From positions 1-48,453 of the forward strand of contig JAFWJN010000051.1 in the NCBI GenBank assembly GCA_017514685.1: DNA of 48,453 nt, read 5' to 3'. Both the position numbers and the translations under genes were made by a program. This stretch comes from Clostridia bacterium (GTDB lineage Bacteria > Bacillota > Clostridia > Christensenellales > CAG-138). Below are positions 29,450-41,261 of the stretch, piece after piece (the first letter of the stretch is position 1; each line of letters begins with the position of its first letter). The notes below the pieces were generated by a model. It worked only from the letters and a program-made list of their open reading frames with translations, did not search any database and was not told the origin of the DNA.

Positions 29450-29494
29450 TGGTTGCGGGGGGAGGACTTGAACCTCCGACCTCCGGGTTATGAG
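29450..29494 (-). repeat. Attachment site: 45-bp copy of the tRNA-fMet 3' half
   Basis: These 45 bases are identical to 41186-41230, that is, from the anticodon loop to the CCA end of the initiator tRNA. Identity stops at the anticodon loop, the usual crossover region of tyrosine integrases. This is the outer boundary of element 2. Confidence 0.9.
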
Positions 29495-29616
29495 TCCATT
29501 AAATGGGACAACAAAATGACGCCTAAAACACTCAAAAAGTGCCTATTTTACTGACTTTTTCAGCATTTCATTCAGTACCAAGAAATCCAAAGAAAAACAT
29601 ACAATTTCAACCAAAG

Positions 29617-29641
29617 TGTCGTCATTTTTGTCGTCAAAAAC
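29617..29641 (+). repeat. Left-end GTCGTCA repeats of element 2
   Basis: GTGTCGTCA starts at 29617 and TTGTCGTCAA at 29629. The motif matches the three tandem copies near the right end, as expected for integrase arm-type sites. Confidence 0.6.
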
Positions 29642-29884
29642 CAGCACAAATCGGCTGCATAATCGCTCCAAAACTGTATATACATTTTGGTTTCAAAGCT
29701 GTATTTTGCATCGTTTCTTTAGCCTCAGAAATGGATATGCGTTTTTTTCGCTTAATGTCAAGAAAGGAAGCAAAACCGAAAAGCGGCAAATAAGTATTCT
29801 GGGGAAAAGGTAAAGTAGTTACATTTGAATAATGCGAGTTATCAGATCATAAATTTATGAAAAAATAAAATCTGATTCGATAAC

Positions 29885-29913
29885 TTGCTTTTTTAAGTTA
29901 TTTACGGTATGAT
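29885..29913 (+). promoter_or_regulatory. Promoter of the AAA_14 ATPase gene
   Basis: TTGCTT (29885-29890) and TATGAT (29908-29913) are 17 nt apart; the start is 28 nt downstream. The rest of 29495-29884 is AT-rich with no credible gene. Confidence 0.6.
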
Positions 29914-29940
29914 ATAGGCAGAACTTTTGCGGAGGACAGA

Positions 29941-31170
29941 ATGGAATTATTCAAGCGAGAAAACTATTTGAAAAAGATCCGGGGATTCTATCACGCGACG
30001 GACATCATTAAGGTGATCACCGGTGTGCGTCGTTGCGGTAAATCCACGCTGATGCAGATTGTGGCGGACGAACTGCGCGACGTGGGCGTTGTATCAGATC
30101 GGATCGTGTTTCTGAATCTGGATAAGCTGGAATACCGCAAGATTAAAACGGCGGATCAGCTCGATGCGCTGATCGCGTCATTCCCGAAAAGCGGCGAGCC
30201 GATGTATCTGTTCATCGACGAGGTACAGAACGTCGAGGACTTCGAGGAAGTCATCAATGGTTATCGCGAGGACGGCAGCTATTCGATTTTCATCACGGGT
30301 TCCAATTCCTACCTGCTCAGCGGCGAACTTGCCACAAAGCTCACCGGCCGATATATCGAGATCGAGCTGTATCCGCTGACCTTCGACGAATATCTGCAGA
30401 TGAAGGCGTTTTATGGGAAGCCAGCCGATCCGAACCTCAGCGTGGAGCTGAACCGCTATATTCTGGAGGGTGGCTTCCCGCGCGCGATCCGGTTCGACGA
30501 GCTTGGGGACAAGCGCAGCTATACGGAAAGCGTTGTGACGGAGATCTTCGAGAAGGACATCCGCAAGCGCGTAAAGATCAAGAACAAAGAGGCGTTCGAC
30601 GCCGTGCGGCGGTTCATCATCAACAACTTCGGCGCGACGGTCAGCGTCAACAGTCTCACGGATGCGCTGAACAAAAGCGGCTTGAACATCACCCGTGCAA
30701 CGGTAACAAAGTACATCACCGCGTTGACAGAGGCAAAGATCCTCTACGAATGCGACCGGTTCGACATGAAGTCGAAGCGCGCCTTGAAGGGTGAAAAGAA
30801 GTATTATCTTTCCGATCTCAGCTTCTATTTCTGCGACAACACCGACAACCGCATCAACTTCGGTCCGGTGCTCGAGAACATCGTCTGCTTCTATGCAAAG
30901 AGCCGCGGCTATCGCGTGAGCGTCGGGCGGATCGGGAATCTTGAATGCGATTTCATCCTGCGCGATCGGGATATGAACTATTCCTATCTGCAGGTCGCCT
31001 ACACGATTGCGCAGAGCGAGCAGACCGAGGAGCGCGAATATCGTCCGCTGGAGCAGATCCGGGACAATTATCCGAAATATCTGCTGACAACGGATTATCT
31101 GCTCCAGAAGCGCAACGGCATCCGTCACGTTAACCTGATGGAATTCATGCGAGACGGGAAAGAGTTTTGA
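29941..31170 (+). CDS. AAA_14/DUF4143 ATP-binding protein
   Basis: A 409-residue protein. Walker A is GVRRCGKST (about residues 28-36) and Walker B YLFIDEVQN (about 90). Sensor-like ITGSNSYLLSGELATKLTGR and the hallmark YPLTFDEYLQ follow, typical of the AAA_14 domain. Residues 205-400 match the DUF4143 region, which ends in a nuclease-like fold with LECDFILRDRD. GCGGAGGA precedes ATG 29941. These proteins are common in gut bacteria and on islands; their function is not settled. Confidence 0.85.
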   Translation: MELFKRENYLKKIRGFYHATDIIKVITGVRRCGKSTLMQIVADELRDVGVVSDRIVFLNLDKLEYRKIKTADQLDALIASFPKSGEPMYLFIDEVQNVEDFEEVINGYREDGSYSIFITGSNSYLLSGELATKLTGRYIEIELYPLTFDEYLQMKAFYGKPADPNLSVELNRYILEGGFPRAIRFDELGDKRSYTESVVTEIFEKDIRKRVKIKNKEAFDAVRRFIINNFGATVSVNSLTDALNKSGLNITRATVTKYITALTEAKILYECDRFDMKSKRALKGEKKYYLSDLSFYFCDNTDNRINFGPVLENIVCFYAKSRGYRVSVGRIGNLECDFILRDRDMNYSYLQVAYTIAQSEQTEEREYRPLEQIRDNYPKYLLTTDYLLQKRNGIRHVNLMEFMRDGKEF

Positions 31171-31210
31171 AAAGGCATTCTTCTGAAAGAGGACGCAGGG
31201 GAAATAAACA

Positions 31211-39892: not shown

Positions 39893-41072
39893 CATTCAAG
39901 AGCGCCGGGACAAAAACGGCAAGCTGATTTCATATTGCATTCGCGTTCACCGTGGGCGCGGCGCTGACGGAAAGCAGCTGAAGCCGTGGACAACGACGTT
40001 TGACGTACAGGACACATGGACGGAGAAAAGCGCACGGAAAAAGGCAGAGGCATTTGCTGCGACGTTTGAAAAGGAATGCAAGCAAGGGATCGCCACTGAC
40101 GCGCGGCTGAAATTCTCCGAATACTGCGATTATGTTCTTTCTATCAAAGAGGAGCGCGGCGTGAAGCACTCGACGCTCTGCCGTTACAAAGAATTGACAA
40201 AGCGTATCTATCCGGCGATCGGACACATGAAGCTGAAAGACCTCCGTGCTGATCATCTGAACAGCTTTTATTCTGCGCTGTCAAAGAATGGACAAAACAA
40301 GCACGGCGGGAAGCTGTCTCCGAAAACTGTGCTTGAACATCATCGGCTCATTCACACGGTTCTTGATCAAGCAGAGCGAGAGGGACTTGTACCGTTCAAC
40401 GTGGCAAGCCGGGCAACGCTGCCAAAGGCACAGAAAAAAGAGGTAAACTATTTTCAGCCGGAGGAGATCGACGCGATTCGTGACGCGCTTGAATCTGAAC
40501 CTATCAAATGGAAGATGATCACACATCTGTTTTTGATCACTGGGGCGCGGCGTGGGGAAATCCTCGGCTTGAAATGGTCAGCGGTTGATTTTCAAGGCAA
40601 CAGAATCCACATCGAAAACTCGATCCTGTATGAACCGGATCGCGGGATATATCAAGACACACCGAAAACAGAGACGTCCGTGCGTTGGATCGTTCTGCCG
40701 TCGGAGACAATGCAGCTTCTGAAGCGTTACCGTGCGTGGCAATTAGAAGAAAGTCTGCGGCTCGGTGAATACTACAAGGATCAAGGTTTCCTGTTCGCAC
40801 AGGACAACGGTCAGCCGATGCATCCGGACAGCGTGACGTCATGGCTCACAAAGTTCTCAAAGCGTCACGGACTGCCGCATATCAATCCGCACGCATTCCG
40901 GCACACAATGGCGTCCATGCTTTATTTCAACGGCGTTGACAGCGTTTCAATATCAAAGCGGCTCGGTCACGCGCAAGTCAGCACGACGGCGAATATTTAC
41001 GCTCATGTGATCGCGGAAGCTGATCAGAAGAATGCAGATATCCTTGCAAGTGTATTTCTCAAAAAAGCGTAA
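39885..41072 (+). CDS. Tyrosine-family integrase
   Basis: A 395-residue complete integrase. An N-terminal arm-binding domain (1-60: IQERRDKNGKLISYCIRVHR), a SAM-like core-binding domain (about 70-165) and the catalytic domain follow. Catalytic residues are the Arg in TGARRGEILGL, HAFRHTMASM, LGHAQVSTT and the nucleophile in IYAHVI. AAAGGAG precedes ATG 39885. Its 3' end is 114 bp from the initiator tRNA, the typical place for an integrase that targets a tRNA 3' end. Confidence 0.93.
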   Translation: MANIQERRDKNGKLISYCIRVHRGRGADGKQLKPWTTTFDVQDTWTEKSARKKAEAFAATFEKECKQGIATDARLKFSEYCDYVLSIKEERGVKHSTLCRYKELTKRIYPAIGHMKLKDLRADHLNSFYSALSKNGQNKHGGKLSPKTVLEHHRLIHTVLDQAEREGLVPFNVASRATLPKAQKKEVNYFQPEEIDAIRDALESEPIKWKMITHLFLITGARRGEILGLKWSAVDFQGNRIHIENSILYEPDRGIYQDTPKTETSVRWIVLPSETMQLLKRYRAWQLEESLRLGEYYKDQGFLFAQDNGQPMHPDSVTSWLTKFSKRHGLPHINPHAFRHTMASMLYFNGVDSVSISKRLGHAQVSTTANIYAHVIAEADQKNADILASVFLKKA

Positions 41073-41095
41073 AAAGACCGGATTTTTCAAGGCAA

Positions 41096-41115
41096 GTTGA
41101 ATTATAGTTGAATTA
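41096..41115 (+). repeat. Right-end GTTGAATTA repeats of element 1
   Basis: Two direct copies at 41096 and 41107, 11 bp apart, as at 38007 and 38018. Confidence 0.8.
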
Positions 41116-41158
41116 TACGCACTGTTTGCATAAGAGAAAAGAACATACAGAAAGCAAA

Positions 41159-41181
41159 AAGTCCCTAAAATAGGGACTTTT
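41159..41181 (-). terminator. Terminator of the initiator tRNA
   Basis: AAAGTCCC pairs with GGGACTTT (41159-41166 and 41174-41181). It lies directly after the tRNA on the minus strand and within element 1, so the element supplies it. Confidence 0.75.
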
Positions 41182-41185
41182 TTGG

Positions 41186-41261
41186 TGGTTGCGGGGGGAG
41201 GACTTGAACCTCCGACCTCCGGGTTATGAGCCCGACGAGCTACCGACTGCTCTACCCCGCG
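41186..41261 (-). tRNA. Initiator tRNA-fMet (CAU)
   Basis: 76 nt with CCA encoded. The acceptor 5' strand CGCGGGG faces CCCCGCA, leaving the C1-A72 mismatch that marks bacterial initiators. The anticodon loop is CTCATAA and the anticodon stem carries three consecutive G-C pairs, another initiator mark. The T arm is GGAGG-TTCAAGT-CCTCC. It is the host of two tandem integrations, and its 3' half now comes from element DNA. Confidence 0.95.

Follow-up and report, generated by a model that had tools for sequence, protein, structure and literature searches.

A probable stack of tyrosine- and serine-recombinase elements behind the initiator tRNA gene of a Clostridia bacterium

The DNA described here (the window) comprises 48,453 nucleotides of contig JAFWJN010000051.1 from a Clostridia bacterium (assembly GCA_017514685.1), and its subject is the initiator tRNA gene with the layers of DNA stacked behind it (Table 1). 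The sole tRNA gene that ARAGORN reports in the window is a tRNA-Met(cat) on the minus strand; read 5' to 3' it has C1 opposite A72 and GGG/CCC pairs within the anticodon stem, and a C1.A72 mismatch with three G-C anticodon-stem pairs is what we take to be the mark of an initiator tRNA. Two displaced copies of its 3' half lie in the same orientation, the arrangement of a tandem island (an intact tRNA gene with 3' fragments oriented alike), and the identity of both to the intact gene is lost at one and the same place near the anticodon loop. These copies are real and far from chance: they match the intact gene at 47/48 (outer) and 43/48 (middle) positions, compared with 27/48 at the next-best ungapped place in the window and 25/48 in one shuffled window. 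The middle copy carries a T-stem of GCAGG/CCTGC in place of the GGAGG/CCTCC of the intact gene. In a search of the assembly the intact tRNA came up once and each half copy was recovered (E 1.5e-17 and 3.3e-13); besides these there was one weak match, 33 bases long, at another place. The original prediction, made from the sequence alone, had named an intact initiator tRNA gene and two 3'-half copies in one orientation, and this is borne out; it had also remarked that the initiator tRNA is often single or low copy, which agrees with the one copy found in an assembly of 2.37 Mb (61 contigs, 83% complete), to which single-copy status is limited.

Regarding the inner of the two elements so delimited, the integrase expected near the tRNA is present as integrase A. 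It contains the stretches GARRGE, HAFRHT, LGHAQVS and IYAHV, which presumably have catalytic roles; judged by its sequence the enzyme looks functional, and only this inner integrase of the window looks usable. The left end of the element (37815-38023) matches an element in a related genome, G017 (83%), where it is joined to the same tRNA half (relatives are designated G for genomes, C for contigs and L for loci). The G017 element is at least 5 kb long, and its 385-aa protein is 80.6% identical to the AAA_25 protein over residues 3-100 only, the C-terminal part beyond about residue 100 being unrelated. The inner element is probably a shortened remnant whose full form, like that of G017, measured 5 kb or more. 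As the youngest element, it is the one that supplies the 3' half of the intact tRNA.

The outer element has an integrase fragment, again as predicted: 32401-33030 corresponds to residues 187-396 (the last 210 codons) of a 396-aa integrase B of G022. Its left part (29450-31471) is 92% identical to L053 and 32402-33092 is 92% identical to L052, two blocks that lie about 20 kb apart in a 26-kb mobilizable element of G022, with relaxase, ParB and helicase/ResIII-type genes between them and a full-length integrase. Because the left 2.0 kb and the integrase match an element with a relaxase in between, the outer element derives from a mobilizable element but has lost its mobility genes; no relaxase was found among its seven scanned open reading frames (ORFs), so that it lacks the combination of integrase and relaxase that defines an integrative mobilizable element (IME). 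A break within it is indicated by the TcmP-like gene (the TcmP name is our assumption), which abuts the partial integrase. A simple deletion of the G022 element was considered and rejected, since the TcmP-like gene and HipBA have no match in the type-B element of G022 and the cargo differs too.

Table 1. Features of the initiator tRNA locus (LSR, large serine recombinase; HTH, helix-turn-helix; X, a tail sequence described in the text)
Feature	Position	Strand	Basis or remark
Intact initiator tRNA-Met(CAU)	41186..41261	-	ARAGORN; C1.A72 and GGG/CCC anticodon stem
Displaced tRNA 3' half between both tyrosine-type elements	37844..37891	-	repeat search; 43/48 vs intact gene
Displaced tRNA 3' half, outer end	29450..29497	-	repeat search; 47/48 vs intact gene
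Inner element, 3.3 kb, tyrosine integrase type A	37844..41185		tRNA 3' ends at both sides
Tyrosine integrase A, intact, 405 aa	39855..41072	+	Pfam Phage_integrase E 1.3e-27
HTH regulator, inner element	39242..39892	+	Pfam HTH_3
Small excisionase-like ORF, 64 aa	38973..39167	-	name by resemblance only; similar counterpart in G017
AAA_25 gene, truncated	38093..38983	-	Pfam AAA_25
Outer element, 8.4 kb, tyrosine integrase type B, remnant of mobilizable element	29450..37843		similarity to G022 loci L053, L052
AAA_14/DUF4143 ATPase (PADLOC candidate PDC-S01)	29941..31170	+	Pfam, PADLOC
TcmP-like gene, stops at integrase fragment	31422..32400	+	PADLOC PDC-M30A E 7.4e-12; break at 32401
Tyrosine integrase B, C-terminal fragment	32401..33033	+	98.6% identity to L052:10575-11765
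HipB-like HTH protein	33202..33480	+	Pfam HTH_26, HTH_3
HipA-like kinase	33386..34582	+	Pfam HipA_C E 5.1e-52
GajA, Gabija ATPase-TOPRIM	34682..36325	+	PADLOC GajA E 5.9e-202; Pfam OLD-like_TOPRIM
GajB, Gabija UvrD-like helicase	36318..37421	+	PADLOC GajB E 6.4e-138
E2, putative remnant of older layer	28661..29449		degenerate tRNA-end core TTGGTTGTGGAGGAG; LSR-type tail (X) reaching 28743; debris beyond it
E1, putative oldest visible layer	23812..28660		tRNA-end core TGGTTGCGGGGG, LSR-type tail (X) to 23916, then genes
Terminator-like hairpin after intact tRNA	41156..41182	-	
Terminator-like hairpin after 37844 copy	37816..37842	-	
Terminator-like hairpin after 29450 copy	29415..29446	-	
Terminator-like hairpin after 23812 tRNA-end scar	23784..23806	-	

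The original prediction of two tandem elements at 29450-41261 stands as far as both are present, but they are only the two youngest layers: the scars at 23812 and 28661 had been missed, the site is apparently shared by recombinases of two unrelated chemistries, and no mobility genes are left in the outer element, itself a remnant. At both scars, which bound E1 and E2, a tRNA-end core is joined to an LSR-type tail designated X. At 23782-23824 a terminator-like hairpin is preserved along with the final 12 tRNA bases (E 5.9e-8). The E1 block recurs in L045 (95%) and in L169 of G007 (87%), each time with another left flank and with homology ending at 23815 and 23811, respectively, and the right end of E1 with X is common to G020 and G009 (99%). 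The scars suggest an LSR origin of E1 and E2, and they probably belong to the same series as the tRNA halves, which makes four layers in all. Debris like thioredoxin reductase (named by eye) is found at 23640-23780, left of the oldest scar, so that the stack may go deeper.

Comparison with 23 congeneric genomes makes the order of insertion readable, because in relatives an intact tRNA is found right beside the inner end of the outer element and, within a few bases, beside that of E2. The type-B inner end (37655-37843) lies directly against the intact tRNA in G022 (91%), G014 (91%) and G005 (88%), as do 98 bases of it in G020 (79%); in G011, 3 bases separate the inner end of E2 (29305-29446, 96%) from the intact tRNA. 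At its left end (29450-29661) the type-B element adjoins a tRNA half in five genomes (G007, G014, G015, G021 and G022), and what lies outside this end is an LSR gene end in G014 and G022 and differing sequence in the other three; the ends of the outer element are thus kept in other species while flanks and cargo vary. An insertion signature at the initiator tRNA, taken as either a tRNA half or a junction of this tRNA with an LSR, was counted by us in 12 of the 23 genomes (G000, G004, G007, G012, G014, G015, G016, G017, G018, G019, G021 and G022), G016 with 31 bases only. No intact initiator tRNA gene was found in G004, G015, G016 or G021, all four counted as inserted. The cargo of the hotspot comprises Gabija and HipBA in the window, HipBA in G007 and, by eye, type I (G014) and type III (G022) restriction-modification genes, in line with the predicted hotspot that gathers defence genes while each element rebuilds the tRNA 3' half. 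The same genes in the same order without the tRNA fragments, which the prediction had named as the observation that would contradict it, were not encountered: in G022 the outer left end and the AAA_14 gene are joined to a tRNA half, HipBA of G007 lies between a tRNA half and the intact tRNA, and Gabija genes were not found in the other loci compared (L040-L065 at 1e-6; L155-L170 at 1e-8).

It is highly probable that the initiator tRNA gene of this genus is a serial integration site behind which tyrosine- and LSR-type layers are stacked. An incoming element would recombine at the 3' side of the gene and bring in a 3' tRNA part and a terminator that take the place of those present, so that the displaced 3' part moves outward together with all that follows it. 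For the tyrosine integrases, which are of two families, the crossover would lie near the anticodon loop and leave 45-48 bp behind; for LSRs it would lie in the acceptor stem and leave about 12 bp together with a tail of 80-95 bp, with which the recombinase gene would have ended before insertion. Of the four layers, E1 would be the oldest and E2 the next (both LSR-type scars); the type-B element, which carries Gabija and HipBA, would have followed and the type-A element come last, both of these having apparently lost internal DNA. The enzyme assigned to each layer, the crossover positions and any present mobility are inferred. As the initiator tRNA is essential and maybe the only copy of the cell, every insertion must leave it working.

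The LSR branch of this proposal derives from relatives. An LSR abuts the intact initiator tRNA in G018 and G019 and a tRNA half in G022, whose LSR has Resolvase, Recombinase and zinc-ribbon domains; the frame of these enzymes stops inside the tRNA sequence or just past it (...MVAGAGLEPAASGL). A search of 103 genomes of the family (26 genera) gave 18 LSR homologues at E <= 1e-100, spread over 16 genomes and 3 genera. Of these homologues, 16 end directly in a tRNA-Met or part of one: five in the initiator or its half and 11 in another tRNA-Met(cat) or part of it, here called elongator-type in the sense of not being the initiator, a label that would also cover tRNA-Ile(CAU). On the tRNA strand, the final codons of the LSR give a long hairpin with a T-rich run after it. 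In a covariation analysis of 12 of 21 folded flanks (eight with the same or nearly the same hairpin and one from the insert of L111 were omitted), pairing is kept in 94.8% of the cells, and both partners vary in 8 of the 16 pairs; this pairing was reached by 0/500 shuffles and the double changes by 4/500, and slid controls pair at 32-49%. These figures are somewhat biased towards the hairpin, as its structure comes from a row of the same set and the rows are related to one another. A single origin of initiator targeting was considered but is not favoured, as the LSR tree needs two changes (one change suffices in 5% of the bootstrap trees). Searches at 1e-40 returned 4 plasmid and 9 phage records, every LSR match being below 40% identity, and among viral contigs no relative of integrase A or of the LSR passed the search. 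In G007, a pair of neighbouring genes for serine recombinases (L046:10918-13792), with about 27% identity to the initiator-tRNA LSR, lies just left of a half of the initiator tRNA.

X occurs one to six times in each of 16 of the 23 congeneric genomes, a count that missed the copy of G022 and the window's own copy at 23825. The sequence left of X differs between copies; often it is a hairpin with a tRNA end, sometimes it resembles a recombinase end, and a few copies have no good core. In G004 an elongator-type LSR gene runs into VAARDVLEYAKIHLPILLGT..., which is X-like (shuffles scored as high in 6/5000 and 0/5000 cases). X-like tails lie on the element side of six of the seven LSR elements of which more than 10 kb of element side was retrieved, in LSR orientation and 4-19 kb away, with a good tRNA-end core in G019 C2, G019 C4 and G022 C3. 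Together with the resemblance to an LSR end, this position suggests that in the free element X is the native end of the recombinase gene, and that it stays behind on the opposite side once integration has joined the gene to the tRNA. X was also considered as the end of a host gene, since its frame is conserved; this was rejected because the upstream part varies with each copy and X resembles a native-type LSR tail. The joint of an elongator-type LSR gene with a native-type tail at L161:110-301 (G004:C208) could be that of a free form, or an older LSR re-tailed by a newer insertion. Three LSR-type tails (L155:18416-18607; L190:3043 and 14263-14454) lie on the G022:C4 contig of an elongator-type tRNA-Met, a locus that may accordingly be stacked too.

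LSR integration thus appears to swap the C-terminus of the enzyme. Beyond this, we give about even chances to a wider proposal: that these LSRs form a family specialised on tRNA-Met (initiator and elongator-type) in which the gene end would serve at once as attachment site, tRNA acceptor end and opposite-strand tRNA terminator, that integration would exchange the tail for one read from antisense tRNA, as a possible switch between integrating and excising forms, and that a second insertion would restore the native-type tail of the older LSR.

Regarding the older layers, several points weigh against the serial reading. E1 and E2 contain no recombinase, and no homologue of the initiator-tRNA LSR was found in the window's assembly at E <= 1e-10. 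If each member of a tandem array is expected to have its own integrase gene and a tRNA fragment, the inner element has both, the outer one retains only the 210-codon fragment, and E1 and E2 are without an LSR. The core at 28661 is degenerate, as are those at the other three X-like tails (G006, G008 and G022 C4), and no X tail was found within 20 kb beside the LSR of G064. The inner end of E1 was not found against an intact tRNA; it is next to X, or diverges before X. Two of the 11 elongator-type cases are imperfect (the tRNA of L113 lacks its last 12 bases, and L187 is frame-shifted before the tRNA); of the two remaining homologues, the LSR of L111 reaches its tRNA only via an insert and that of L186 has no tRNA. 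Concerning the younger layers, the type-B end also occurs away from tRNA, in L168 (next to a tRNA-end core and X) and in L061 (without a core). Although a relative of integrase A with 69% identity (L042) also lies beside a tRNA-Met like that of the window, others lie by tRNA-Arg (76% and 44% identity) and tRNA-Leu (49%), and taken together the relatives of integrases A and B are also found by tRNA-Arg, tRNA-Leu, tRNA-Asn and another tRNA-Met. The 23 genomes are drafts, 59-97% complete, in which several contigs end at the tRNA. A circular form, excision or a clean empty site was not seen among the sequences compared, the nearest being G005 with a remnant of about 1.2 kb.

That there are two elements only, the scars at 23812 and 28661 being copies of a dispersed repeat that merely resembles a tRNA end, is unlikely. 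The abundance of X in the genus would agree with such a repeat, many of its contigs not being known to carry the initiator tRNA and some copies having no good core; on the other hand, X resembles the native-type C-terminus of an elongator-type LSR more closely than nearly all shuffles, X-like tails lie on the element side of six of seven LSR elements, and the hairpin is kept together with the 12-base tRNA end at 23812. Somewhat more doubtful still is a joint entry of inner and outer elements as one composite island. The outermost copy matches the intact gene better (29450 vs 41186, 47/48) than the middle one does (37844 vs 41186, 43/48), so that the outer pair could recombine as a unit; yet in G022, G014 and G005 an intact tRNA adjoins the inner end of the outer element, which is what stepwise growth would lead one to expect. 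Other origins of partial tRNA copies are generally known, but ordinary partial duplications or pseudogenes with native genes between them are most improbable here, given the shared orientation, the common point near the anticodon loop at which identity is lost and the outer-element ends conserved in other species between differing flanks and cargo.

The serial stack belongs to a known kind, that of tandem tRNA islands. Tandem accretion has been described for IMEs (passages of PMC5704250), and the Islander paper, in the parts consulted, counts 125 tandems with at least two members and 4 with at least three (PMC4383910). The locus resembles such islands, as they are characterised in those parts, in its regenerated tRNA gene, displaced 3' fragments and decayed array members; it differs in the initiator tRNA as target (found once in the assembly), in two unrelated recombinase types and in an outer member with an integrase fragment only. 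According to the same passages of that 2015 paper, only tyrosine integrases, not serine integrases, were known to target tRNA genes, a statement that the LSR branch goes against. Streptococcal serine-integrase integrative and conjugative elements (ICEs) in rumA are reported, in an excerpt of PMC4701971, to have one attachment end inside the integrase gene and to exchange the 3' parts of the genes, i.e., the integrase C-terminus, upon integration. The attachment end within a serine recombinase gene and the swapped 3' parts are shared with the ICEs of that excerpt; unlike there, the target here is a tRNA gene whose acceptor stem the exchanged LSR end must restore, and within that coding end there is a hairpin resembling a terminator of the tRNA. 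In Paracoccus phage vB_PamS_Pami6 a serine recombinase is predicted in tRNA-Met (a passage of PMC6536676), the same assignment as here, so that the present LSRs are not the first claimed at tRNA-Met; that passage concerns one predicted case in Alphaproteobacteria and mentions neither an overlap of gene end and tRNA nor an array. The word 'tRNA' is absent from the main text of an LSR survey (PMC10083194). Stacked elements in an initiator tRNA gene were not found in the literature searched (titles, abstract starts and passages), nor was an LSR with a tRNA-terminator overlap (mostly listings, with subscription journals largely outside). What sets the locus apart from the known systems compared is the initiator tRNA target, the two recombinase types and, in the relatives, the overlap of LSR end, tRNA and terminator-like hairpin. 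Read in this way, the locus records the repeated rewriting of an essential RNA gene by mobile elements, as a readable insertion stack with defence cargo; if the proposal for the LSRs is true, the tail swap may control the direction of recombination, and the enzymes would be possible integration tools for a conserved site.

Regarding the remaining features, each of the tRNA ends at 41186, 37844, 29450 and 23812 is followed immediately by a minus-strand hairpin with a T-run, which presumably acts as a terminator; no terminator-like site lies directly at the 28661 core. A promoter-like site precedes the intact tRNA (41301-41273, score 11/12). Such sites are no more frequent than in shuffles, which also counts against the reading given above (terminator-like, 23 in the region vs 18.9 +- 4.3; promoter-like, 23 vs 21.7 +- 4.4), so that it is their position that gives them meaning. 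GajA lies next to GajB, and a role in protection from phages is predicted; an HTH protein lies upstream of the HipA kinase. Both systems are arranged as known, with nothing unusual seen, and represent cargo. E1 contains genes for a FKBP/FeMo-Co-domain protein, a Crp-type regulator and a pyridine-nucleotide-disulfide oxidoreductase with rhodanese, TusA and DsrE domains, besides a broken thioredoxin-like frame (by eye). Fragments like the end of a NUDIX protein (named by eye) occur at 29195-29287 and 37506-37598, 250-340 bases left of a tRNA half, and elsewhere in the same genome (C5:20918-21063); they are about 73% and 70% alike. Outside the stack, the ORF at 13260-15218 contains a tandem repeat (13413-13544) of about 11 units of 12 bp, which corresponds to an Ala-Glu-Pro-Thr-like stretch.

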